Origin: Gammaproteobacteria bacterium
GTDB lineage: Bacteria; Pseudomonadota; Gammaproteobacteria; Pseudomonadales; Porticoccaceae
Length of the DNA stretch: 8,444 bases
Direction of reading: 5' to 3'
Assembly (NCBI GenBank): GCA_003646355.1
Contig: QNFO01000036.1
Span: 1-8,444, forward strand
Within the stretch, counting starts at the first letter, position 1. Each line of letters begins with the position of its first letter. Shown piece after piece: positions 1 through 8,444 of this stretch. Under the pieces are notes generated by a model. That model saw nothing but the letters and a program-made list of their open reading frames with translations. It was not told the DNA's origin and ran no database searches. A program made the position numbers and the translations under genes.

Positions 1-333
1 AGTCGGCACGTAATCCCCGTTGAAATGAGTGAGGGTGTTGCCGTCAAAAAAGAGTGTGATTCGTTCGCGCATTTCAGGGCGGCCTGGGGGTTTAACGCTG
101 TAATAGTAGTCCCAGCGGTCCTGGTCGAAGGTGTCCATTAGCAAAGGGGTACCTAAAATATAACGTACTTGCGAGCGGGTCATGCCGGGACGCAACTGGT
201 CGACCATTTCCTGGTTGACGATATTGCCCTGCTGTACTGTTACCTTGTGAAGGTCGGGGTATTTGAGGTAGGAGCAGCCGTTTAAGAGTGCGGCGGTAAC
301 AATTACGAGGGCCAGGAGAAAGCGGCTTGGCAT
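1..333 (-). CDS. bamE: BamE (SmpA/OmlA) outer-membrane assembly lipoprotein, 5' part only
   Basis: BamE is a small lipoprotein of the beta-barrel assembly machine (BAM), which inserts proteins into the outer membrane. The visible 111 codons have no stop before the window edge, so the C-terminus is missing. Reading from the ATG at 333, residues 5-17 form a hydrophobic signal peptide, followed by a lipobox LLNGC with the lipidated cysteine at position 20. The BamE fold signature follows: QQGN at 34-37, LRPGMTRSQV at 47-56, LGTPL at 60-64 and WDYYYS at 74-79. E. coli BamE has the matching QGN, IRVGMTQQQV, LGTPL and WFYVF. The gene points away from fur, the same divergent arrangement as omlA-fur in pseudomonads. 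The Shine-Dalgarno is weak (GGAA about 6 nt upstream). Identification is by family motifs, and confidence is high despite the truncation. Confidence 0.93.
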   Translation of the reverse strand, partial: MPSRFLLALVIVTAALLNGCSYLKYPDLHKVTVQQGNIVNQEMVDQLRPGMTRSQVRYILGTPLLMDTFDQDRWDYYYSVKPPGRPEMRERITLFFDGNTLTHFNGDYVPT

Positions 334-403
334 TTGGGGTTCCAGTCTGTGAATCGAACGGGGATAATACCCTATTCAGCAAATCTGTGAGAAGAGGTCA
401 TCA
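334..403. promoter_or_regulatory. Divergent bamE/fur promoter region
   Basis: Seventy bases separate the two start codons and must hold both promoters unless one lies inside a gene. The best -10 candidates overlap: GATAAT at 363-368 for fur and, on the other strand, TATTAT (369-364) for bamE. No convincing -35 is visible for either. A GAAGAGG element at about 391-397 gives fur a usable ribosome binding site. I could not see a clear 19-bp Fur box, so autoregulation by Fur is not shown by the sequence. Confidence 0.4.
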
Positions 404-808
404 ATGTCGCAGGGCAATCAAGAACTGAAAAAAGTGGGTTTGAAGGTGACGCATCCCCGCATCAAAATCTTGCAAATTATGGAGAGCGAAAAGCAACGAC
501 ACCTCAGTGCCGATGATGTTTTTCGCTGCCTCCATGAAAAAGGTGAGGACGTGGGTATTGCCACGGTCTATCGCGTACTCACGCAATTTGAAACGGCTGG
601 TTTGATACAGCGTCACAGTTTCGATTCGGGGCCGGCGCTCTATGAGCTCAACCGAGGCGAGCATCACGACCACATGATTTGTGTCGATAGTGGCGAGGTG
701 TCAGAATTTCACAGTGAGGAAATCGAGGCCCTGCAGCGTCGTATCGCCGCCGAAAAAGGTTACGAGCTGATAGGCCATAGCCTGGTGCTCTACGTAAAAC
801 CAAAGTAA
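404..808 (+). CDS. fur: Ferric uptake regulator Fur
   Basis: Fur is a cytoplasmic dimeric metal-responsive repressor that uses Fe(II) as corepressor to shut off iron-uptake genes. The 134 residues are the length I recall for Pseudomonas Fur, and shorter than E. coli's 148. The N-terminal winged helix has LKKVGLKVTHPRIKIL (8-23) and the recognition-helix motif GIATVYRVLTQFETAGL (51-67). Metal ligands by E. coli numbering are present: H33, E81, H88 and H90 for one site, and H87, D89, E108 and H125 for the other. C93 is present but the partner C96 is serine, giving ICVDSG instead of CxxC, as in Pseudomonas Fur. That usually means there is no structural Cys4 zinc site. The ATG at 404 has a GAAGAGG element 6 nt upstream. 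Fur is unlikely to be cotranscribed with the following ACAD genes, given a 97-bp gap with two small hairpins. Confidence 0.96.
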   Translation: MSQGNQELKKVGLKVTHPRIKILQIMESEKQRHLSADDVFRCLHEKGEDVGIATVYRVLTQFETAGLIQRHSFDSGPALYELNRGEHHDHMICVDSGEVSEFHSEEIEALQRRIAAEKGYELIGHSLVLYVKPK

Positions 809-831
809 TAAACGATAGTTGTTTTTCATTG

Positions 832-853
832 CCAGCGGGTTTGTTTGTGCTGG
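832..853 (+). terminator. Weak hairpin after fur
   Basis: CCAGC (832-836) pairs with GCTGG (849-853) around a 12-nt loop, 24 bases after the fur stop. The sequence after it (TTGAAAAAG) is not a T-run, so intrinsic termination would be inefficient. It is the only terminator-like element directly after fur. Confidence 0.2.
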
Positions 854-868
854 TTGAAAAAGTTAACA

Positions 869-887
869 GGGGTGTTTTTAGCACCCC
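869..887 (+). promoter_or_regulatory. 6-bp perfect hairpin just before the first ACAD ribosome binding site
   Basis: GGGGTG (869-874) pairs perfectly with CACCCC (882-887) around a 7-nt loop TTTTTAG. It ends 6 bases before the GAGGAGAGG ribosome binding site at 894. There is no T-run after it, so it could be a 5'-UTR structure or a protein-binding dyad rather than a terminator. Confidence 0.3.
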
Positions 888-893
888 GCGAAT

Positions 894-902
894 GAGGAGA
901 GG
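894..902 (+). promoter_or_regulatory. Strong ribosome binding site that fixes a GTG start
   Basis: GAGGAGAGG sits about 6 nt (from AGGAG) before the GTG at 906. This supports GTG as the start of the first ACAD over the next in-frame ATG at 960, which would cut into the N-terminal helix. Confidence 0.7.
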
Positions 903-905
903 AAA

Positions 906-2033
906 GTGGAAGACATTAGTTTGCAGTCGCGCATCGACGTGCTCAGCGAAGAGCAGGTAATGATTCAAGATAGTGCCGTTGCGTTTATCGCCCAGGACGA
1001 AGAGCTTAAAAAGGTGCGTGAAAATCGTTTCACACAACCCGGTTACGATGCGCAGACCTGGGCCGAAATGGCCGAAGCCGGTTGGCTGGGTTTTTTGGTG
1101 CCGGAAGAATACGACGGTATTGGTTTGGCGTTTTCCGATCTCAGTCTGGTGTTGATCCAGTTGGGCAAAGGTTTAGTGCCAGCACCTTTCTCTGCCACTG
1201 CCGTATTGGCGGCGCGTACCCTTGTTAAAAGCGACAATGAGTCTTTCAAGAAAGCCCGCTTGCCCGCATTGATTAGCGGTGAGTGGAAGCCGGCAATCGC
1301 CTGGCAGGAAACTCGCGCAACGCTGGATGTTAAAGCCGAGAAAGTCACCTGTGCCGATGGCAAGCTGAATGGCCAGAAGTTGTTTGTGCCCGATGCCGGT
1401 GGTGCCGATGCCTTTATCGTTTCCGCTGCGACAGCCGAAGGTACGACCCTGTATGAAGTTGAGAAAGACGCCAGTGGCCTGAGCATTGAATACGCCCAGC
1501 GTGTCGACGGTGGTTTTTATGCCACCCTGACTTTTGACAATGTTGCCGTCGGTGAGCAAGTCGCCAGCGCCGCCGTTGCTGAGCAGGCTTTGGCCTCGGC
1601 TCTAGACGAAGCGCGCGTTGCCGCCAGTGCCGAGCTACTGGGTGTGATGACCCGGGCGCTGGAAATCACTGTCGATTATCTTACTCAGCGGGTGCAGTTC
1701 GACAAGCCCATTGGTAGTTTTCAGTCGCTGCAACACAAAGCGGTCGACCTGTTTGTGTTGTCTGAAATTTCTCGCTCGGTGCTGTTGCAAACCACTGCTC
1801 TGTTCGACGGCGATGCTTCGGATAAAGAACGCGCGATTGCCGCCAGCCAGCTTAAGTCGCGCTGTGGCGACGCAGCCCTGCAAATCACCAAAGATGCCAT
1901 CCAGTTACACGGCGGCATTGGTTATACCGATGAATGTAATATCGGCCTCTACCTGAAAAAAGCCATGTACCTCTCCTCCCTGTGGGGCAACCCCACAGCC
2001 CACCGTGGTCGTTATGCTGCTCTCGTTTTATAA
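906..2033 (+). CDS. Acyl-CoA dehydrogenase-like protein, catalytic-glutamate-less (beta-type) subunit
   Basis: This 375-residue ACAD-fold protein most likely serves as the non-catalytic partner in a heteromeric flavin enzyme that makes the first alpha,beta-double bond of a CoA thioester. Visible family motifs are LVPEEYDGIG (64-73), RVQFDKPIGSFQ (262-273) and QLHGGIGYTDE (333-343). The last two supply the Arg/Gln/Gly-Gly contacts to the FAD bound mainly by the adjacent subunit. Missing are the flavin loop (canonical TEPGAGSD; here WQETRATLD, 133-141) and both known positions of the catalytic base. The MCAD position in YEGT reads LWGN (Trp360), and the isovaleryl-CoA dehydrogenase position in LDLER reads LDEAR (Ala236). 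It therefore should not work alone. It lies 78 bp before the next ACAD on the same strand. Mycobacterial FadE/ChsE alpha2-beta2 pairs are the known precedent. The substrate cannot be told from sequence; bulky or branched acyl-CoA (including steroid side chains) is an inference from that precedent. Confidence 0.88.
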   Translation: MEDISLQSRIDVLSEEQVMIQDSAVAFIAQDEELKKVRENRFTQPGYDAQTWAEMAEAGWLGFLVPEEYDGIGLAFSDLSLVLIQLGKGLVPAPFSATAVLAARTLVKSDNESFKKARLPALISGEWKPAIAWQETRATLDVKAEKVTCADGKLNGQKLFVPDAGGADAFIVSAATAEGTTLYEVEKDASGLSIEYAQRVDGGFYATLTFDNVAVGEQVASAAVAEQALASALDEARVAASAELLGVMTRALEITVDYLTQRVQFDKPIGSFQSLQHKAVDLFVLSEISRSVLLQTTALFDGDASDKERAIAASQLKSRCGDAALQITKDAIQLHGGIGYTDECNIGLYLKKAMYLSSLWGNPTAHRGRYAALVL

Positions 2034-2061
2034 AGGGGTTTTATAAAGCGGTTTTACAAAC
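2025..2061 (+). repeat. Three tandem 13-bp repeats over the first ACAD stop codon
   Basis: GTTTTATAAAG at 2025-2035 recurs exactly at 2038-2048 and imperfectly (GTTTTACAAAC) at 2051-2061, giving a strict 13-bp period with 2-bp spacers. The core TTTATAAA is self-complementary. The first unit contains the TAA stop (2031-2033) of the upstream ACAD. It may be a slippage product, an A/T-rich protein-binding array, or an internal promoter region for the next gene. Confidence 0.6.
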
Positions 2062-2111
2062 TGCAGGTTTCAGTTTGAGTTAACGACACAACATAAGTTT
2101 TAGGAGAGAAG

Positions 2112-3260
2112 ATGACTGATTACAACGCAATGGCGGATAGCGACTTTCGCAAAATGCTCAACGACTGGCTGGTCGAGAATTACCCCGACGAGCTGCGCTT
2201 TCCCGCTGAACGCATGCACTGGGACCAGTGCGGCGACTGGTATATGACCCTGGCGAAAAAAGGCTGGTTGGCACCGGGCTGGCCGGCGGAACATGGCGGC
2301 ATGGGGCTCGACGCCAATAAGCTGCTGATATTAATGGAAGAGTTTGAAGGCTACGGCGTTGGCCGTACGCCGGATCAGGGCATGACCATGATCGGGCCGC
2401 TGTTAATTCAGTACGGCACCGAAGAGCAGCGCCAGCACTATCTGCCGAAAATCCTTAACGGTGAAAATATCTGGTGTCAGGGTTACTCCGAGCCGGGTGC
2501 CGGTTCTGACCTCGCCAGCCTGCGCACTGCAGCCGTACGCGATGGCGATGACTACATCATCAACGGCCACAAGATCTGGACCACCCTGGCGATGGACGCC
2601 AACATGATCTTCACCCTGGTGCGTACCAATAAAGAGGGCAAGAAGCAGCAGGGCATTACCTTTTTGCTGATCCCCCTCGACAGTCCCGGCATTACCGTGC
2701 GCGGCATCGACAACCTTGGCATGCACGATGAATTCGCCGAAGTGTTTTTCGACGACGTACGCGTACCGGTTGCCAACGTGGTGGGTAAAGAAGATGACGG
2801 CTGGACCATTGCCAAGGCCTTGCTCGGCCACGAACGTATCTTTATCGGTAGCCCAAAGATGGCCTCGCTGGCAATGAATCGCCTCAAAGCACTGGCTGAA
2901 GGCGCTGACATGTTTGGCGATCCCCTCTTTGTCGAGCGCTACACCGTACTCAAGTTGGAGATTGAAGACCTGTCTGCGGCCTATATGCGTTTTGTCGAAG
3001 TGCTGAAGCGCGGCGGCAAAATTGGTGCCGAAGTGTCGATGTTGAAGATCTGGAATACCGAGACCCAGCAGCGCATTACAGATTTGATGCTCGATGTCGC
3101 TGGCGAGAACTGTGGTGTTTCCGATGCTATCCCCACGGGTGATACCGCCGTGAGTGCGCCGGGTGAATTTATTGGTGCTCGCCCGACCACTATCTATGGC
3201 GGTAGTAACCAGATTCAGCGCAATATTTTGGCGAAGGCTGTTTTGAAGTTGCCGAGCTAA
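2112..3260 (+). CDS. Acyl-CoA dehydrogenase, catalytic (alpha-type) subunit 1
   Basis: This 382-residue FAD-dependent ACAD fits the catalytic half of a heteromeric enzyme. It carries the flavin/substrate loop WCQGYSEPGAGSDLASLRT (121-139) and WTT (156-158). The catalytic base is probably Glu241 in LLGHERI (238-243), matching Glu254 of isovaleryl-CoA dehydrogenase (LDLERL). The MCAD-type glutamate is absent: the C-terminal motif reads IYGGSNQIQRNILAK (361-375), with Gly where YEGT has Glu. The usual RxxFG and Q-x-x-GG motifs, which contact FAD across the dimer, are not recognisable; the region reads GDPLFVERYTVL. The upstream gene supplies exactly those motifs. The ATG at 2112 has AGGAGA 4-5 nt upstream. 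It is the close paralogue of the next gene, with the same architecture and the same C-terminal AKAVLKLPS. Confidence 0.92.
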   Translation: MTDYNAMADSDFRKMLNDWLVENYPDELRFPAERMHWDQCGDWYMTLAKKGWLAPGWPAEHGGMGLDANKLLILMEEFEGYGVGRTPDQGMTMIGPLLIQYGTEEQRQHYLPKILNGENIWCQGYSEPGAGSDLASLRTAAVRDGDDYIINGHKIWTTLAMDANMIFTLVRTNKEGKKQQGITFLLIPLDSPGITVRGIDNLGMHDEFAEVFFDDVRVPVANVVGKEDDGWTIAKALLGHERIFIGSPKMASLAMNRLKALAEGADMFGDPLFVERYTVLKLEIEDLSAAYMRFVEVLKRGGKIGAEVSMLKIWNTETQQRITDLMLDVAGENCGVSDAIPTGDTAVSAPGEFIGARPTTIYGGSNQIQRNILAKAVLKLPS

Positions 3261-3275
3261 ACACGCAATAAATAG

Positions 3276-3301
3276 CGGCGGGTGCAGAGCGCGGCCCGCC
3301 G
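3276..3301 (+). promoter_or_regulatory. GC-rich 7-bp hairpin between the two alpha-type ACAD genes
   Basis: CGGCGGG (3276-3282) pairs perfectly with CCCGCCG (3295-3301) around a 12-nt loop. An alternative fold pairs GTGCA (3282-3286) with TGCAC (3302-3306). The flank afterwards is AAATAATAAATAG with no T-run, so it is not a standard terminator. A role in mRNA stability or in limiting read-through to the third gene is an inference. Confidence 0.4.
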
Positions 3302-3318
3302 TGCACTAAATAATAAAT

Positions 3319-3323
3319 AGGTG
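3319..3323 (+). promoter_or_regulatory. Ribosome binding site that favours ATG 3330 over GTG 3321
   Basis: AGGTG at 3319-3323 lies 6 nt before the ATG at 3330. The upstream in-frame GTG at 3321 falls inside this element, so it is unlikely to be the start. Starting at 3330 also aligns the N-terminus with the paralogue upstream. Confidence 0.55.
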
Positions 3324-3329
3324 TGCAGA

Positions 3330-4463
3330 ATGGACGACCAGGCATTTCGGCTCCACGTTCGCGAGTGGCTTGAGGCAAACTTCCCCAAAGAAATGCGCTT
3401 TCCGCCTCGGCGCCTAGATTTTGATCAGGCCATGGATTGGCATAAAAAACTCAATGAGCAAGGTTGGGTCGCACCGGGTTGGCCGCAAGAGCACGGTGGC
3501 ATGGGCCTTAGTCCCTATCAGCAGATTATTTTTTCTGAAGAGCTCGATCGCGTTGGCGCTTTTATTATTCCCAGTTTTGGCGTGACCATGCTGGGGCCGC
3601 TGTTATTGGGCTACGGCACCGATGAGCAGCGTGCGGAGTATTTGCCGAAGATTCTCTCTGGTGAGCATATCTGGTGTCAGGGTTACTCCGAGCCGGGTGC
3701 CGGATCTGATCTGGCCAGCCTGCGCACGTCGGCTGAGGTTGATGGCGATGACTACATCGTCAATGGCCAAAAAACTTGGACCACGATGGCTCAGCAGGCG
3801 AATATGGTTTTCCTGCTGGTGCGTACCGACAAAGAGGCGAAGAAGCAAAAGGGTATTAGCTTCCTATTGGTGCCCATGGATACCCCCGGCATTACCGTCC
3901 GTGAGATCGACAATATCGGTGGTTACTCCGAATTTGCTGAGGTTTTCTTCGACAATGTAAGAGTGCCTCGAACAAACATGGTCGGCGCAGTGAATCAGGG
4001 CTGGACCATGGCGAAGGCTTTACTTGGCGCTGAACGTATTTTGCTCGGTAGCCCCAAGCTGGCCAAATTCCCCTTGCAACGCCTGCAAGCCTTGGCTAAT
4101 GATTTTGGTTTGTTTGATGATCCCGTGTTCAAAGAACGCTTCACCAAATTACATATGGATGTTGAAGATTCGGTGGCGGTTTATATACGCATGCTAGAAG
4201 TGATGCGTCGCGGTGAGCAGCTAGGCCCGGAAATATCTATCTTAAAACTGGCAGTGACGGAGATGTTTCAGCAGGTGGCGGATTTAATCCTCGATGCCTC
4301 TGCTGAGTTCGCGGGCACGGAGTCGGTGATCCCTCTGTCTGACGGCACGTCCTACAAGCCCGTCAATACTTACTATCTCTCTCGCCCCTCTACTATTTAT
4401 GGGGGTAGTAGTCAGGTGCAGCGTAATATTCTCGCCAAAGCCGTGTTAAAGCTGCCGAGTTAG
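3330..4463 (+). CDS. Acyl-CoA dehydrogenase, catalytic (alpha-type) subunit 2
   Basis: This protein has 377 residues from ATG 3330. It is paralogous along its whole length to the gene before it and has the same layout. The flavin loop WCQGYSEPGAGSDLASLRT (115-133) is identical in protein and almost identical in DNA. WTT follows at about 150-152, and the probable catalytic Glu235 sits in LLGAERI. The C-terminal motif reads IYGGSSQVQRNILAK, again with Gly replacing the MCAD glutamate. Like its paralogue it lacks the RxxFG and QxxGG motifs for cross-subunit FAD contact, so it should need the beta-type protein encoded at 906. A distinguishing difference is the longer segment before the C-terminal motif (SDGTSYKPVNTYYLSRPS). 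It may pair with the same beta subunit to give a second substrate range, or the two alphas may act together. Neither is shown by sequence. Confidence 0.92.
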   Translation: MDDQAFRLHVREWLEANFPKEMRFPPRRLDFDQAMDWHKKLNEQGWVAPGWPQEHGGMGLSPYQQIIFSEELDRVGAFIIPSFGVTMLGPLLLGYGTDEQRAEYLPKILSGEHIWCQGYSEPGAGSDLASLRTSAEVDGDDYIVNGQKTWTTMAQQANMVFLLVRTDKEAKKQKGISFLLVPMDTPGITVREIDNIGGYSEFAEVFFDNVRVPRTNMVGAVNQGWTMAKALLGAERILLGSPKLAKFPLQRLQALANDFGLFDDPVFKERFTKLHMDVEDSVAVYIRMLEVMRRGEQLGPEISILKLAVTEMFQQVADLILDASAEFAGTESVIPLSDGTSYKPVNTYYLSRPSTIYGGSSQVQRNILAKAVLKLPS

Positions 4464-4464
4464 T

Positions 4465-4491
4465 CGGGGGTTTGAAAAAACCTTGTCCCCG
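4465..4491. terminator. Probable terminator after the ACAD genes, possibly two-sided
   Basis: The structure begins 2 bases after the third ACAD stop. An outer stem CGGGG (4465-4469)/CCCCG (4487-4491) competes at one base with an inner stem GGTTT (4469-4473)/AAACC (4478-4482) that closes a GAAA tetraloop. The plus-strand flank after it is CTTTATT, a poor T-run. On the minus strand it lies immediately beyond a TAA at 4494-4496 that ends the open frame of the small gene described below, so it may serve both directions. Confidence 0.4.
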
Positions 4492-4493
4492 CT

Positions 4494-4586
4494 TTATTCC
4501 AGCGGCAACAAGGTTGAAGGGTGGGTATTTGCGCTGTCTTTCTTCTCGTCGGGCTTAAGCGGGCAGCCTTTAATATCATCGCTTAA
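4494..4586 (-). other. Open -1 frame continuing the small membrane-protein gene (30 codons)
   Basis: If reading shifts back one base at the T5 run (minus strand of 4585-4589), the frame avoids the TAA at 4583 and adds a 30-residue hydrophilic tail, with LSDDIKGCPLKPDEKKD at its start, ending at TAA 4494. This frame is open upstream to 4700 but has no start codon of its own. The tail has normal-looking composition and stops 2 bases short of the terminator hairpin. It is probably the true 3' part of the small gene, separated by an indel, by a sequencing error in the homopolymer, or by slippage. Confidence 0.35.
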
Positions 4587-4732
4587 AAAGGTGTTGGCGT
4601 GGATAGAAAGGGCGTGTTCACCTGGGCTATTTGTATTAGCTCTGCCAGGGCTATTGTTAAAATCACAAAGCCGGCTGTAACACTGGCGCTCAATCGTCTT
4701 TTACAAATCTGTGTTTCACAAAGAGTAGACAT
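4583..4732 (-). CDS. Small single-pass membrane protein (49 aa as read), unrecognised
   Basis: I do not recognise this family. From the ATG at 4732 there is a basic N-terminus (MSTLCETQICKRR), then a hydrophobic helix at about residues 14-36 (SASVTAGFVILTIALAEL...), then a short polar tail ending at TAA 4583. The start is supported by AAGGAAG about 5 nt upstream. By the positive-inside rule the N-terminus should be cytoplasmic. The frame extends upstream to another Met at 4837, but that part has no ribosome binding site and overlaps the lysR control region. The product may really be 79 residues if the T5 run near its end is shifted (see the next-frame entry). It is divergent from the LysR gene, so it is a natural candidate target of that regulator. 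This is inference only. Confidence 0.45.
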   Translation of the reverse strand: MSTLCETQICKRRLSASVTAGFVILTIALAELIQIAQVNTPFLSTPTPF

Positions 4733-4817
4733 AATTTCTTCCTTTTTCGGTTTGTTTGCATTGACCAGTATGAGGGGGTCTCTTCTGGCTTGGTAAAGAA
4801 GATTACGCCTGAGGCTG

Positions 4818-4839
4818 CTTTGTGTAAATTCACACAAAG
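4818..4839. promoter_or_regulatory. 22-bp perfect inverted repeat, probable operator in front of the LysR gene
   Basis: CTTTGTGT (4818-4825), a 6-bp spacer AAATTC, and ACACAAAG (4832-4839) form a perfect dyad ending 28 bp before the LysR start codon. The core TGTGT-N6-ACACA is near the CRP/Vfr consensus TGTGA-N6-TCACA, differing at the two inner positions. A smaller related dyad, TGTG-TTT-CACA, lies at 4710-4720. Either LysR autoregulation or a CRP-family site would fit. Confidence 0.5.
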
Positions 4840-4867
4840 TGCAAACTACCTGTGCAATAATGCACGG

Positions 4868-5743
4868 ATGAATGATTGGGATGATTTGCGCTATTTCCTC
4901 GCTGTCGCGAGAAATGGCACGGTTTCAGGGGCGGCGGTAGAGCTGGGTGTGAATCACTCAACGGTTTCACGCCGCATAAATGCTTACGAAAAGAAACATG
5001 ATGTGCGTTTATTCGAGCGCCTGGCTCAGGGTTATGAAATGACCCAGGCAGCGGAGAATATCTATCGCCATGCCCTGGAGATAGAAGAACGCACCCATAT
5101 TGTCGAGCGAGAGCTGTTTGGACGAGATACGCGCTTACAGGGTCGGCTTTGTATCACCGCTTATCACAGTACGGTCAATGATCTGCTGATACCGTCGCTG
5201 AACAATTTTTGCGAACGCTACCCTGAAATTGATCTTGAGCTTTCTGTCACCGCCGATGTGCGGGATTTGTCGGCGCGAGAAGCCGATATTGCCATTCGCG
5301 GCACGCCACAGCCGCCGGATCATCTGGTGGGTAAAAAGGTAGCGGATCTGGATGCGGCTATTTATACCTCAGAGAACTATCAACAGCGTCAGTTGCGTCG
5401 CCCCGAAGTCATACTTTGGCGTGATGAAGTCGTGTTGCCTGAATGGGTGGCGCAGCACTTCCCCGATGCCCGTGTGGTCTTGCGCGTTGATGATGTCACC
5501 GCAATGCGCGCTGCTGTAAAGGCGGGCCTGGGTGTTGCGAGACTGCCCTGTTGGGTGGCCGATGTTTGCCCCGGTTTGTTTAGGCTCAAGCTTGATGTGG
5601 CAGCTATGGGCTGGGGTTTGTGGGTGTTGATTCATGCCGATCTGCGGTCTACGGCCCGGGTGCGAGTGTGTCGTGATTTTCTTATCGAGACATTGGAGAA
5701 ACAACGTGACCTTATAGAAGGGCGCTGTTCCACGTATTTATGA
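4868..5743 (+). CDS. LysR-type transcriptional regulator
   Basis: This is a 291-residue DNA-binding regulator of the LysR family, which normally act as tetramers and respond to a small effector. The N-terminal winged helix-turn-helix is clear: LRYFLAVARNGTVSGAAVEL (7-26), then HSTVSRRINAYEKKHDVRLFER (30-51). A linker helix follows at about 55-88, then the periplasmic-binding-protein-like effector domain from about residue 90 (GRLCITAYHSTVNDLLIPSL, FCERYPEIDLEL, ADIAIRG). I start it at ATG 4868. A longer frame from TTG 4790 would add 26 residues unlike any LysR N-terminus and would run through the inverted repeat. There is no good Shine-Dalgarno; AATAAT at 4856-4861 could be a -10, which would give a leaderless transcript. 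The neighbours are a divergent small membrane gene and, 66 bp downstream, a zinc protein on the same strand. The effector is unknown. Confidence 0.93.
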   Translation: MNDWDDLRYFLAVARNGTVSGAAVELGVNHSTVSRRINAYEKKHDVRLFERLAQGYEMTQAAENIYRHALEIEERTHIVERELFGRDTRLQGRLCITAYHSTVNDLLIPSLNNFCERYPEIDLELSVTADVRDLSAREADIAIRGTPQPPDHLVGKKVADLDAAIYTSENYQQRQLRRPEVILWRDEVVLPEWVAQHFPDARVVLRVDDVTAMRAAVKAGLGVARLPCWVADVCPGLFRLKLDVAAMGWGLWVLIHADLRSTARVRVCRDFLIETLEKQRDLIEGRCSTYL

Positions 5744-5809
5744 GTGAGTAAGATAGACTCATCAGCGTTGATAAACGTATAAAAATAATAATTAACAGGA
5801 TAGAACACC

Positions 5810-6280
5810 ATGCAAACCCCCTTTTCTGGCGGCTGCTTTTGTGGCGCACTTCGCTACACCGTTACAGCCCAACCGTTTGGACAAGCCAATTGCCACTGCC
5901 GAGCTTGCCAGCATGCCACTGGCGGCGCCTTTGCGGGGGTTGTGCTGGTGCCCACTGAAGCCCTCGAAATCAGTGGCGACTACACGGAATATGCCGCGCC
6001 AGGCGATAGTGGCCATCAGGTCAATCGCGGCTTTTGCCGGCAATGTGGCACCACTGTTTTTGCCCGCACCACGCGCATTGAATCGATGCGACCGGTGTAT
6101 GCGGTGACTCTCGACCACCCCGAACAATTTGCACCGAGCCTCGATGCCTGGGTTGACTTTGCTCAACCCTGGGTGGAGATGGATCCTGATTTGCCAAAAT
6201 ACAAAGGTGACCTGCCTGCAGAGTGTGCCGGTTTACCCGCCCCGAAAAACCGTAAACCTCGCCCTACAAACGATGGCTAA
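5810..6280 (+). CDS. GFA/CENP-V-type zinc-binding protein (Mss4-like fold)
   Basis: This 156-residue cytoplasmic protein belongs to the family named after glutathione-dependent formaldehyde-activating enzyme (Gfa). The diagnostic cysteines are all present: GGCFCGALRY (C9, C11), CHCRACQHATGGAF (C28, C30, C33) and GFCRQCGTTVF (C76, C79). In the family these bind a structural zinc, plus a second zinc in true Gfa. Most family members are not proven formaldehyde enzymes, and the original Gfa activity has been questioned, so the function stays open. A C-terminal tail of about 25 residues rich in Pro/Lys (PAPKNRKPRPTNDG) is beyond the core fold. The ATG at 5810 has ACAGGA about 9 nt upstream. It sits 66 bp after the LysR gene in the same direction, separated by an A/T-rich leader, so it may be cotranscribed with or controlled by that regulator. 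Confidence 0.9.
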   Translation: MQTPFSGGCFCGALRYTVTAQPFGQANCHCRACQHATGGAFAGVVLVPTEALEISGDYTEYAAPGDSGHQVNRGFCRQCGTTVFARTTRIESMRPVYAVTLDHPEQFAPSLDAWVDFAQPWVEMDPDLPKYKGDLPAECAGLPAPKNRKPRPTNDG

Positions 6281-6346
6281 AATAAATGTATTGCGGGCAT
6301 TGAATGCGTGGTGAATTTTCCGTGCTTACTGTTAAGATAAAGCGAC

Positions 6347-6380
6347 AACAATTGCGCTGCGTTAATGCGGGATAATTGTT
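6347..6380. promoter_or_regulatory. 34-bp dyad, probable operator of the ExbB-ExbD-vWA operon
   Basis: The outer arms AACAATT (6347-6353) and AATTGTT (6374-6380) are perfect. A second near-palindrome, GCGTTAATGC (6359-6368), has exactly the same centre (6363.5). Across all 17 pairs there are 12 Watson-Crick matches, 3 G-T pairs and 2 mismatches. The right arm covers most of the candidate -35 box of the following promoter, which is a classic repressor position. The cognate regulator is unknown. Confidence 0.45.
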
Positions 6381-6403
6381 TACGAGCACAATAAAAAGAT
6401 AAT
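6376..6403 (+). promoter_or_regulatory. Sigma70-type promoter candidate for the ExbB operon
   Basis: TTGTTT (6376-6381), a 16-bp spacer and GATAAT (6398-6403) would start transcription near 6410, about 14 bases before the ATG. That leaves room for the AGGGTG ribosome binding site (about 6413-6418). The 143-bp gap before the gene and the AT-rich sequence support a promoter here; the exact hexamers are a visual match only. Confidence 0.45.
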
Positions 6404-6423
6404 TTCCTCAAGCAGGGTGCAGT

Positions 6424-7047
6424 ATGGATCTGGATTTAATTGAACAGGGTGGTCCTGTCGTTATTGTTTTAATCGGCCTCTCGGTCGTTGGCCTAAGTCT
6501 GGTTTTTTTCAAACTCTTTCATTATCGCCATTACTCAATGGGCAAAATACGCAATATAGAAGGGGCTATTGACCTGTGGGTCGAGGGTGATAAGCAGCAG
6601 GCCCTCGATAAGCTGGGTACTGATCCCGGCCCCTATGCGGTCATGCTCGGGCAAGGTATTCGCTGGCTAAATAAAGGCGATAAAGATCAAAGCGCTGTTC
6701 GCGAAGAATTAAACCGTCAGGGCCAACACATTATTTCCCGTGTTAACGGCATGAATGGTTTTATTGAGCAAATTGCCTATTTGTCACCGATGCTTGGTTT
6801 ACTCGGTACGGTGTTGGGCATGATTGATGTATTTCGCGGCTTGGCTAACCAGGGCGGCGGTGGTGATACCGGTGCCCTGGCGGGCGGTATTTGGGAGGCG
6901 CTGATGACCACCGCCGTTGGTTTAACCGTCGCCATTCCCTTCGCGTTAATTTATTACATGCTCGACAGCCACGCCACGACCATTCGCCGCAGTATGGAAG
7001 ACCAGCTGACCCGGCTCTTTACCGTCAAACTCTACGACAAGCCTTAA
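6424..7047 (+). CDS. ExbB/TolQ/MotA-family proton-channel protein
   Basis: This inner-membrane protein of 207 residues belongs to the family whose pentamers, with an ExbD/TolR dimer in the pore, use the proton gradient to move a partner. There are three membrane helices: about 10-32, about 113-140 (YLSPMLGLLGTVLGMIDVF) and about 157-180 (WEALMTTAVGLTVAIPFALIYY). A cytoplasmic domain lies between the first two. Conserved residues by E. coli ExbB alignment are Thr129 in GLLGTV (Thr148), Glu158 in IWEAL (Glu176) and Thr163 in MTTAVGL (Thr181). AGGGTG precedes the ATG. It is the first gene of a four-gene set with two ExbDs and a vWA protein. None of TolA, TolB, Pal or a standard TonB is seen, so this is neither a tol-pal locus nor a classic tonB locus. 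Confidence 0.95.
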   Translation: MDLDLIEQGGPVVIVLIGLSVVGLSLVFFKLFHYRHYSMGKIRNIEGAIDLWVEGDKQQALDKLGTDPGPYAVMLGQGIRWLNKGDKDQSAVREELNRQGQHIISRVNGMNGFIEQIAYLSPMLGLLGTVLGMIDVFRGLANQGGGGDTGALAGGIWEALMTTAVGLTVAIPFALIYYMLDSHATTIRRSMEDQLTRLFTVKLYDKP

Positions 7048-7073
7048 GCACAGCTGCAACGAGTCGCCTCGCT

Positions 7074-7475
7074 ATGAATTTGCAGTCCCACCACCGCAAA
7101 GCCCTGCGCCGCATTAGCCTGACGCCACTGGCTGATCTGGTTTTTATTTTGTTGGTTTTCTTTATTCTTGAAACCAGTTTTGTACAGTTCAGGGAGGTGG
7201 CTTTTAAAGTGCCCGATGAACCCACAAAGGCGAGCCATGCCGAGGGAGAGAGCCTGAGCATTCAGGTCTTTCCCGGTGGTAAATTGTGGATAGATGGCAA
7301 GTCGATGGCGCTGGCAGAACTCACCCCGTGGCTGGTGCGTCAGCAATTGAGTGCAGAGACCGCCGTTATTCTCAAAGCCGAAGACAGCGTGCCTCTGCAA
7401 ATTTTGGTCGAGGCGATGGATCTACTGCGCGCCCAGTCACTGCCCCGCGTGCAAATTCAGGCATTGGGGGATTAG
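7074..7475 (+). CDS. ExbD/TolR-family protein 1, with the proton-carrying Asp
   Basis: This 133-residue protein has one N-terminal membrane helix and a periplasmic domain. The signature LTPLADLVFILLVFFIL (16-32) keeps Asp21, equivalent to ExbD Asp25/TolR Asp23, the residue that carries protons. The periplasmic part shows the usual ExbD pattern: SLSIQVFPGGKLWIDGKSM, a central AVILKAEDSVPLQILVEAMDLL, and a C-terminal VQIQAL strand. I start at ATG 7074, 26 bases after the ExbB stop. Longer in-frame readings run back through ExbB and give arginine-rich out-of-frame sequence. The ribosome binding site is weak, so translation may depend on coupling to ExbB. It should form the pore dimer inside the ExbB pentamer, perhaps together with the next gene's product. 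Confidence 0.92.
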   Translation: MNLQSHHRKALRRISLTPLADLVFILLVFFILETSFVQFREVAFKVPDEPTKASHAEGESLSIQVFPGGKLWIDGKSMALAELTPWLVRQQLSAETAVILKAEDSVPLQILVEAMDLLRAQSLPRVQIQALGD

Positions 7476-7477
7476 CC

Positions 7478-7891
7478 ATGTTTGATCTCGGTAGCGAGCA
7501 CGATAAAAAGAAGCAGTCTGACGACAATATGCTGCCCGTTATTAATATGACGTTTTTACTGCTGCTGTTTTTTATTGTCGTCGGCAATTTCAGCGAAACC
7601 TACATGAAGGATGTCGCCCCCCCCGAATCCAGTAGCAAGGTGCTGACGCAAAAGGCCGAAGAGTTGTCGCTAACGGCCGATGGAAAGTTGTGGTGGCGGG
7701 GCGAAACGACAACATTGTCAAACTGGGCCAGCCAAATACAGGCCGAGGGTCAGCCAGTCCCCGTTCGTGTCAGCTTGCGGGCCGATGGTCAAACCCCCGC
7801 ATCCATTATCATTCCCCTGATTGACGAATTGCGCTTACTCAAAGTTACGCGAGTGGCACTCGTCACCGTGAACAGCCCCGGTAATTATTAG
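7478..7891 (+). CDS. ExbD/TolR-family protein 2, Asp-to-Asn in the membrane helix
   Basis: This 137-residue second ExbD-type protein starts 2 bases after the stop of the first, with GGGGG about 6 nt before the ATG. The helix reads MLPVINMTFLLLLFFIVVG (18-36). Aligned to the first ExbD, PLADLVFILLVFF becomes PVINMTFLLLLFF, so the proton-carrying aspartate is Asn23. The N-terminus is unusually charged (SEHDKKKQSDD). The periplasmic domain keeps the ExbD pattern: ELSLTADGKLWWRGET, then VPVRVSLRADGQTPASIIIPLIDEL and RVALVTV. It probably cannot carry protons itself, so it may form a mixed dimer with the Asp-bearing ExbD. Asn-bearing ExbD paralogues next to normal ones are something I recall from other proteobacteria but cannot verify here. 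Its stop overlaps the next gene's GTG by one base (TAGTG). Confidence 0.9.
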   Translation: MFDLGSEHDKKKQSDDNMLPVINMTFLLLLFFIVVGNFSETYMKDVAPPESSSKVLTQKAEELSLTADGKLWWRGETTTLSNWASQIQAEGQPVPVRVSLRADGQTPASIIIPLIDELRLLKVTRVALVTVNSPGNY

Positions 7892-8444
7892 TGCTGCTAT
7901 CTCTGAAGCACTTAAAAGCCCTGGGCCTGTGGTTCGTTTTACTGCTGGTTTCCCTGGCGATTCATTTGGTGCTGACCTGGCAGGCCTCGTTGCACATCGT
8001 TAGCCCTGAGTTAGCCGCCGAGAAAAGTGTTGAAGAAATTGAAATTATGCTCGATATCGCCGAGCCAGAAGAAGAAAAAGAAGAGCTGGTGTTTGAAGAT
8101 GCCATCGAATTTGAGCCGCCCCCAGTACTCGTTGCGACATCGGCGCTGGCGCCACCGCCGCCCGAGGTCAATCTGGCGATGGAGGCTGCAGCCGGTGGGC
8201 AAAGTGCCAGTGGCTTTTCCGCCCCCCTGTTGTCGAACACAGTGGCAACCGGCGGTGATGGTCTGGCCGGTTTTGGAACCGGCGTTGGCACAGGTTTGAG
8301 CCAGTCGGCCAACCAGTTTGCCGCCTATGTACAGGGCTTACGTGAGACCGGGCTCGACGTGGTGTTTGTGGTCGACTCCACCGGCTCTATGGATTGGGTG
8401 ATCGAAGAAGTGCAGGCGCGCATTGTCGATATCGTCGATGTCAT
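7891..8444 (+). CDS. TonB-like membrane anchor fused to a von Willebrand factor A domain, 3' end outside the window
   Basis: There are 184 codons visible and the gene runs off the window. It starts at GTG 7891, overlapping the previous stop. Residues 10-30 form one membrane helix (LGLWFVLLLVSLAIHLVL) with Ser21-x3-His25, the same spacing as TonB Ser16/His20, which couples TonB to ExbB/ExbD. The N-terminus should be cytoplasmic and the rest periplasmic. Next come an acidic linker (44-75, with EPEEEKEEL), a Pro-rich patch (76-91), and a Gly/Ser/Ala-rich low-complexity stretch (about 99-143). A vWA domain then begins: LDVVFVVDSTGSMDWVIEEV with the MIDAS motif D162-x-T164-x-S166, in the DxTxS variant common in bacterial vWA proteins. 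vWA domains bind partners through a divalent metal. The likely role is the force-receiving output of the proton motor encoded upstream. The substrate or partner is unknown. Confidence 0.88.
   Translation, partial: MLLSLKHLKALGLWFVLLLVSLAIHLVLTWQASLHIVSPELAAEKSVEEIEIMLDIAEPEEEKEELVFEDAIEFEPPPVLVATSALAPPPPEVNLAMEAAAGGQSASGFSAPLLSNTVATGGDGLAGFGTGVGTGLSQSANQFAAYVQGLRETGLDVVFVVDSTGSMDWVIEEVQARIVDIVDV

Follow-up and report, generated by a model that had tools for sequence, protein, structure and literature searches.

An ExbBD-type motor that carries a vWA force transducer and may energise hydrophobic-compound transport

Results

At the 3′ end of the window, by which we mean the whole 8,444-nucleotide stretch of DNA analysed (a marine gammaproteobacterial contig of the Porticoccaceae, QNFO01000036.1, positions 1 to 8,444), we find four plus-strand genes at 6424-8444 that encode an ExbB/TolQ-like proton-channel subunit, two unlike ExbDs and a membrane-anchored vWA force transducer. 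We favour, with moderate confidence, the reading that these four genes, together with the downstream tetratricopeptide repeat (TPR)-like and DUF1329 genes of relatives, specify a trans-envelope machine in which the motor moves the vWA head to energise the transport of hydrophobic compounds. The motor part of this reading is strong; the complex as such and its cargo we infer from gene order, domains, invariant residues and linkage.

The operon in the window and in its relatives

The four genes are co-directional and, in the reading-frame list, spaced by 26, 2 and −1 bases. The ExbB/TolQ-like subunit has 207 residues (6424..7047; PF01618, 97.5 bits against a cut-off of 22.9), and among 120 listed homologues the 14 best share 84-95% identity with it over 99-100% of the protein. 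ExbD1 (133 residues, 7074..7475) and ExbD2 (137 residues, 7478..7891) match PF02472 with 72.9 and 66 bits, respectively (cut-off 25.4). The open reading frame at 7891..8444 holds 184 of the ~370 residues of the vWA transducer, its end being cut by the window: an anchor helix with Ser21 (codon 7951-7953) and His25 (codon 7963-7965), an acidic/proline linker, and just the first part of the vWA domain, including Asp162, Thr164 and Ser166 from position 8374, for which VWA_4 scores 14.9 bits, under its cut-off of 27. The gene is whole in L001, the locus of the nearest relative, G001 (L numbers denote loci of relatives and G numbers their genomes), where its 370-residue product matches VWA_4 with 46.7 bits and VWA with 32.5 bits (cut-offs 27 and 23.8). 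An initial annotation of the window had read this order, ExbB, ExbD, ExbD and a TonB-anchored vWA protein with the same spacing, from the letters alone, and Pfam, the reading frames and the whole gene in L001 agree with it, the spacing being exact.

An ExbB scan of the species genomes returned 18 loci, seven of them close (L001-L007, 55-93% identity). All seven loci go on to a vWA protein of 368-376 residues, and a long protein comes after it, of 773-791 residues in six and reaching the contig end at 737 residues in L007; all six with sequence past the long protein then carry a protein of ~460 residues, which in L001 is a DUF1329 protein with a LolA-like match (Pfam). The long protein begins with a signal-peptide-like stretch, as judged by eye, matches TPR models under the Pfam cut-offs (L001, L133) and is predicted to be an all-helical solenoid, with a mean predicted local distance difference test (pLDDT) score of 88.7 from an 11-row alignment. 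The 50 Protein Data Bank (PDB) matches listed for this model have template modelling scores (by query) of 0.15-0.29 and root-mean-square deviations of at least 12.6; they are mostly eukaryotic repeat scaffolds, with a Campylobacter periplasmic scaffold at rank 19, and say only that the predicted fold is a helical repeat. The initial annotation had raised the question of a TPR gene or another neighbour past 8444, and in relatives a TPR-like gene and, mostly, a DUF1329 gene do follow.

A vWA head on a TonB-type anchor

Residue conservation, counted over 128 aligned vWA proteins, singles out two sites. Ser21 and His25, at TonB-like spacing, are present in all 123 sequences that reach those columns and also in the window, and the metal site of the vWA domain is nearly invariant (Asp162 128/128, Thr164 128/128, Ser166 127/128, Asp266 127/127). 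In TonB, the Ser/His pair is described as the contact with ExbB (PMC12215075). The predicted model of the L001 protein comprises a single helix (residues 2-37), a low-confidence linker (pLDDT <50 at residues 41-59, 80-83 and 92-138) and a vWA fold (142-361). Because Ser21 and His25 are invariant at the TonB spacing, the anchor is not a chance helix, and a cleaved signal peptide in its place is disfavoured by the same invariant residues, which lie inside the predicted helix. A Ser-x3-His motif stands near the N-terminus in 43/45 vWA proteins; the exceptions are L111 and L113, the latter a C-terminal piece at a contig end.

A fold search places the vWA head nearest to integrin beta I-like domains and also returns BatB (3ibs); by sequence, the vWA protein has 0 matches to solved structures at E 0.01. 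Pfam finds no PF03544 (TonB_C) in the whole L001 vWA protein, which rules out TonB proper. The proposal that an ExbBD-type motor here drives an anchored partner whose TonB head is replaced by a vWA domain is supported by the retained Ser/His pair and by the conserved linkage described below.

Genes linked to the vWA transducer

We then surveyed wide flanks of 45 vWA loci from 43 genomes (one gene lies over two contigs and one genome has two copies), using profiles seeded from these loci, with members checked by Pfam. Denominators are the informative loci, those with a flank long enough or with the gene found, a rule that slightly favours found genes at short contigs; a second vWA type (L024 = L117, L115 and L116) was kept out of the linkage counts. 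The vWA gene has ExbB nearby in 36/40 loci, two ExbDs in 37/41 and the TPR-like gene in 42/42, and the linkage to ExbB and ExbD on which the initial annotation staked its reading is accordingly conserved. DUF1329 stands 3′ of the vWA gene in 33/38 loci, with a twin-arginine-like stretch at its start in 30/33; DUF1302 is found on the 5′ side in 24/37, and YCF48 is present in 18/32 and an RND protein in 13/26. Among loci flanked by 6 kb or more on each side, a count free of the eligibility bias, 23/24 have DUF1302 or DUF1329. All 43 vWA-carrying genomes hold DUF1329 copies, 3-17 per genome with a mean of 10, and chance would be expected to place ~0.01 co-directional copies within 7 kb of each locus.

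The fullest order, seen in the family of G099, runs RND (MMPL)-YCF48-DUF1302-ExbB-ExbD1-ExbD2-vWA-TPR-like-(AMP-ligase-CobW)-DUF1329. In L133 the RND, YCF48, DUF1302, AMP-ligase, CobW and DUF1329 proteins are above their Pfam cut-offs and the TPR match is under; the RND protein of this locus is nearest to the HAE3 family, under its cut-off. DUF1302, DUF1329, RND and YCF48 accompany the vWA gene all together at 9/45 loci, of which the family of G099 contributes eight and G128 one; contig ends truncate many of the others. Of these four families of proteins, the window's nearest relatives have DUF1329 alone, and in the family of G001 it follows in 14/14. These recurrent neighbours, DUF1329 and in part DUF1302, RND permease and YCF48-like proteins, point to hydrophobic-compound transport, and the adhesion-type reading of the initial annotation is not favoured.

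Between the TPR-like and DUF1329 genes, some loci (e.g., L128, L129, L133, L139 and L145) carry an AMP-ligase gene (13/45 loci) and a CobW GTPase gene (12/45). The AMP-ligase genes agree with fatty-acyl import and are not proof of it.

An Asp/Asn pair of ExbDs

A feature absent from the initial annotation emerged from alignment of the 38 vWA-linked ExbD pairs examined (the window and 37 loci): at the proton-carrying position the first ExbD has Asp in 38/38 (residue 21 in the window, codon 7134-7136, plus strand) and the second has Asn in 38/38 (residue 23, codon 7544-7546, plus strand). Asp is present in both ExbDs of a related ExbB-ExbD-ExbD set of G871, which lies away from the vWA gene of that genome, and likewise at all three second-type vWA loci. 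In rotary 5:2 motor models the two Asp residues alternate, one proton being taken per 36 degrees (PMC12215075). Judged from the aligned residues, proton carriage at the usual site would be possible in just one of the two ExbDs here, and a motor in which they pair would have one such site as compared with two elsewhere.

Two arrangements may be considered, and they differ in the place of ExbD2. In one, ExbD2 stands outside the axle as an accessory or regulatory subunit and ExbD1 forms the usual homodimer, a plausible alternative for the motor that we rate as short of probable; it concerns the motor only and is compatible with the trans-envelope machine, such that the two likelihoods are not additive. 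Asn at the proton-carrying position of MotB serves as a protonation mimic (PMC9389320), so that ExbD2 could not take its turn, and the motors with Asp in both ExbDs, in G871 and at the second-type loci, also fit this arrangement. On the other side, ExbD2 is otherwise a whole ExbD by its PF02472 score, and the helix surrounding the Asn remains ExbD-like across the 38 sequences; the Asp/Asn pair also persists in TonB-headed sister systems, described below. None of these points demonstrates pairing.

In the other arrangement, which we put forward tentatively, this would be a natural one-proton-site 5:2 motor: an obligate ExbD1(Asp)-ExbD2(Asn) heterodimer within an ExbB pentamer would deliver torque by five 72-degree strokes or a limping cycle and drive a metal-gripping vWA head, whose task would be to open the DUF1302 barrel or to load the DUF1329 carrier and empty it again. 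Such a motor would amount to a Ton-like energised lipid route across the outer membrane, arisen by a swap of the TonB head for a vWA head on an existing Asp/Asn motor. Five 72-degree strokes or a limp have been considered for an asymmetric axle in a review that speaks of a motor in which an external partner causes the inequality, and in which the pairing of AglQ with AglS is likewise unsettled (PMC9389320).

Sister motors and the ExbB tree

In the family of G008 (L150-L162) the ExbD pair is again Asp then Asn, in 13/13 loci, and the gene after ExbD2 encodes an anchored TonB_C protein in 4/5 tested, the fifth being incomplete; the four anchors shown have Ala where the first Ser would stand. On an ExbB tree of 63 rows, rooted for drawing only, the 37 vWA-linked ExbBs share one branch (100/98), which groups with the 13 TonB-linked sequences (99/96) to the exclusion of all remaining rows; those 13 do not themselves form a supported clade (72/68). 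The tree supports a swap of heads on a common motor. This support stops short of proof because of the drawing-only root, the 72/68 value for the TonB-linked rows and the warnings that attach to long branches that meet, namely the second vWA type and several outgroup rows.

That second anchored vWA type (L115:4583-10191, L116 and L117 = L024) has the gene order vWA-ExbB-ExbD-ExbD, with a TPR protein next in L115 and L117 incomplete. Ser-x3-His and Asp in both ExbDs are found in 3/3, and its ExbBs form three rows far off on a long branch. The related ExbB-ExbD-ExbD set of G871 (L188:6662-11177) immediately precedes an HpnN-type RND permease gene, with a second, divergent MMPL gene beside it; the permease is above the cut-off of the HpnN model TIGR03480 and under that of the HpnN model NF052374.

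Distribution and surroundings

Genome searches used the vWA protein or its alignment. In the class, 5/369 genomes match at E <1e-80, the query's own G001 included. At E 0.001 the count is 43/369, and the matches beyond the strong ones are mostly vWA proteins of ~400 residues with 38-39% identity over ~120 residues; these weak matches were set aside, L025-L048 showing no ExbB or ExbD in short flanks. The order yields 3/390 genomes at E 1e-30, two of them of the second vWA type. By family, matches occur in 15/112 genomes for that of G001, 27/36 for that of G099 and 1/1 for that of G128. The phylum yields 1/398, which is G001 itself, and the phylum of a Verrucomicrobiales locus (Verrucomicrobiota) yields 2/194 at E 1e-20 (E ~1e-23), over the vWA domain only. 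In the protein database there are 671 matches at E 0.001 among 7,998 candidates scored, the weaker of which may be other vWA proteins. The vWA-motor system is overall rare and common in a few families.

Upstream of the operon, reading frames and Pfam place Fur, a LysR-type regulator and a GFA-family protein, along with a minus-strand frame that we take from its sequence to be BamE-like. Three consecutive frames at 906-4463, presumably acyl-CoA-dehydrogenase-like, also lie 5′ of the operon; this gene row is kept in L001 as well and might suit a lipid-catabolic setting.

Discussion

Relation to known systems

The operon is real, and the initial annotation, which could not say how widely such operons had been described, was right to single it out; the architecture is not new. 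A 2025 paper describes force transducers with a vWA domain and a Ser/His motif in Proteobacteria, the PVC group and other lineages, encoded next to a TPR gene, a tolQ-like gene and a pair of unlike tolR-like genes, and gives their function as unknown (PMC12204202, Mol Biol Evol 2025). The window operon is of this kind, as it shares with them the Ser/His anchor helix, the disordered linker and the vWA head, as well as the TPR gene and the set of one TolQ-like protein with two unlike TolR-like proteins (PMC12204202). It differs in that the PVC-group vWA genes described there lie 3′ of the TPR gene and motor, whereas here the TPR-like and DUF1329 genes follow the vWA gene; in the RND/YCF48/DUF1302 module linked in one family; and in the ExbD Asp/Asn asymmetry in all pairs examined. 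The PVC relatives of that paper were not recovered in the 194-genome Verrucomicrobiota search. What may be new is the linkage to hydrophobic-compound transport, the Asp/Asn rule of the ExbDs and the Asp/Asn sister motor with a TonB head. We found no link of ExbBD/vWA transducers to DUF1302 or DUF1329 in the literature covered, including the available portion of PMC12204202, supplements and preprints being outside the search, and no Asp/Asn ExbD pair in that same portion or in limited further searching; one paper, a survey of the MetJ regulon, mentions both DUF1302 and ExbB, once each (PMC3228920).

Among other ExbBD-type systems, Ton (ExbB-ExbD-TonB) is alike in its motor proteins and anchor, and the sister motor of the G008 family carries the TonB_C head; unlike Ton, the present system lacks TonB_C and has a vWA head instead. 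Next to the operon we noticed no TonB-dependent receptor, no profile search having been aimed at one. In a test for Tol-Pal, the tolQ model TIGR02796 gives 69.5 bits, far under its cut-off of 221. Zorya or another defence system was rejected, with none of six proteins matching a PADLOC family at E 0.01 and ZorA2 at 13.7 bits against a cut-off of 700.

The neighbours have better-described counterparts. AmeABCD of Castellaniella (DUF1302, DUF1329, COG4447 and an HAE3-type RND protein) confers monoterpene tolerance (PMC6394551), and DUF1302 and DUF1329 proteins of P. putida are needed for Tween 20 metabolism, for which co-folding led to the proposal that DUF1302 is an outer-membrane barrel and DUF1329 its periplasmic partner, in transport with PP_2018 and PP_2019 (PMC10866462). 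The DUF1302, DUF1329, RND and YCF48/BNR proteins that accompany the motor in the family of G099 resemble AmeABCD and the P. putida set PP_0765, PP_0766, PP_2018 and PP_2019; to call PP_2018 YCF48-like is our own reading of what the paper describes as a periplasmic protein (PMC10866462). No ExbBD motor or vWA transducer is reported with either module in the available text of these papers (PMC6394551, PMC10866462). Because of the roles of these modules, the HAE3-nearest RND protein of L133 and the HpnN-type RND permease of G871, we infer that the motor acts on hydrophobic compounds.

Proposed mechanism and the evidence against it

In the machine that we favour, five ExbB subunits would make up the proton channel, with the two ExbDs as its axle. 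By homology and by its invariant Ser/His pair, the vWA protein would sit beside ExbB through the TonB-type anchor helix and be moved on proton flow. Through its metal, the integrin-beta-like head may grip an acidic residue on a partner in the periplasm or the outer membrane, the head then being pulled by the motor. The likeliest partners would be the secreted TPR-like solenoid and the DUF1302 barrel or the LolA-like DUF1329 carrier, and a pull on barrel or carrier would let cargo pass or be released. The conserved gene order suggests that the machine moves a hydrophobic compound, of fatty acyl, sterol, hopanoid or terpenoid type, from the outer to the inner membrane or the other way, and that it acts alongside or instead of the RND permease of an ordinary DUF1302/DUF1329 module.

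Several observations weigh against this reading. The loci come from few families and are not independent, and the assemblies are of unknown completeness. In the window itself the sequence stops before any DUF1329 position. In the family of G001, DUF1302 adjoins the operon in 4/15 loci and not in 11/15, with RND in 0/10 and YCF48 in 0/12 informative loci. DUF1329 was not found 3′ of the vWA gene in 5/38 loci (L123, L124, L126, L143 and L146), L143 having neither DUF1302 nor DUF1329; L132 also has neither DUF and no ExbBD in view. Four loci (L132, L134, L137 and L147) combine vWA and TPR-like genes with no ExbB or ExbD nearby, and in G221 and G870 no close ExbB was found in the genome, the best having 30-33% identity. 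At L111 (G773) the vWA gene is divided over two frames, with anchor and head separate, as would result from an assembly error or a broken gene. Lastly, a structure paper finds the complex so tight that rotation of the axle is hard to picture (PMC12215075).

The vWA proteins of the four loci without ExbBD retain Ser-x3-His. G879 and G871 each have a closer ExbB at another site (43-55% identity), the one in G879 accompanying the second vWA copy of that genome. DUF1302 and DUF1329 are still present at L134, L137 and L147, with more than one DUF1302 frame at L134 and L137.

An alternative that we regard as unlikely is a Tol-like or Bat-like device for envelope maintenance or protein assembly, built on the vWA and TPR proteins, to which DUF1329 and DUF1302 would be linked by old gene order only. 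The pairing of vWA with TPR is that of Bat loci, and BatB is among the structural matches of the head; the intrusion of AMP-ligase and CobW genes at some loci and the five loci without DUF1329 also fit. Passive hitchhiking, however, does not predict that two families with unlike 5′ genes keep DUF1329 on the same side, nor that three loci hold DUF1302, vWA, TPR-like and DUF1329 genes without ExbBD, and no MoxR or DUF58 is found among the Pfam-named proteins, which is not a search of all neighbours.

Less probable still is an adhesion or gliding device in which the vWA head acts like CglB, reportedly a vWA adhesin of the Myxococcus gliding machinery, and the motor acts like AglRQS, pulling on a surface contact: the head is nearest to integrin beta I-like domains, but, held at the inner membrane by its helix and a linker of ~100 residues, it should be periplasmic, the recurrent neighbours are lipid-transport-like, and no glt-like gene was noticed among them, no search having been aimed at such genes. 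Gliding is put forward as a possibility for vWA transducers in the 2025 paper (PMC12204202), and AglRQS of Myxococcus has the matching composition of one TolQ-like and two TolR-like proteins, although its cluster as listed is without an anchored vWA transducer (PMC3169522) and both AglQ and AglS are said to have Asp (PMC9389320), as opposed to the Asn of ExbD2 here.

Implications

For the vWA transducers, to which the 2025 paper assigns no job (PMC12204202), linkage of the motor to a transport module offers a concrete and testable class of cargo. If the trans-envelope machine described here is real, lipids would have a motor-driven route across the outer membrane in addition to the known ones. 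The Asp/Asn motors, found with a vWA head in 38/38 pairs and in 13/13 loci of the TonB-headed family, make the assumption of two alternating Asp residues testable without artificial mutants.

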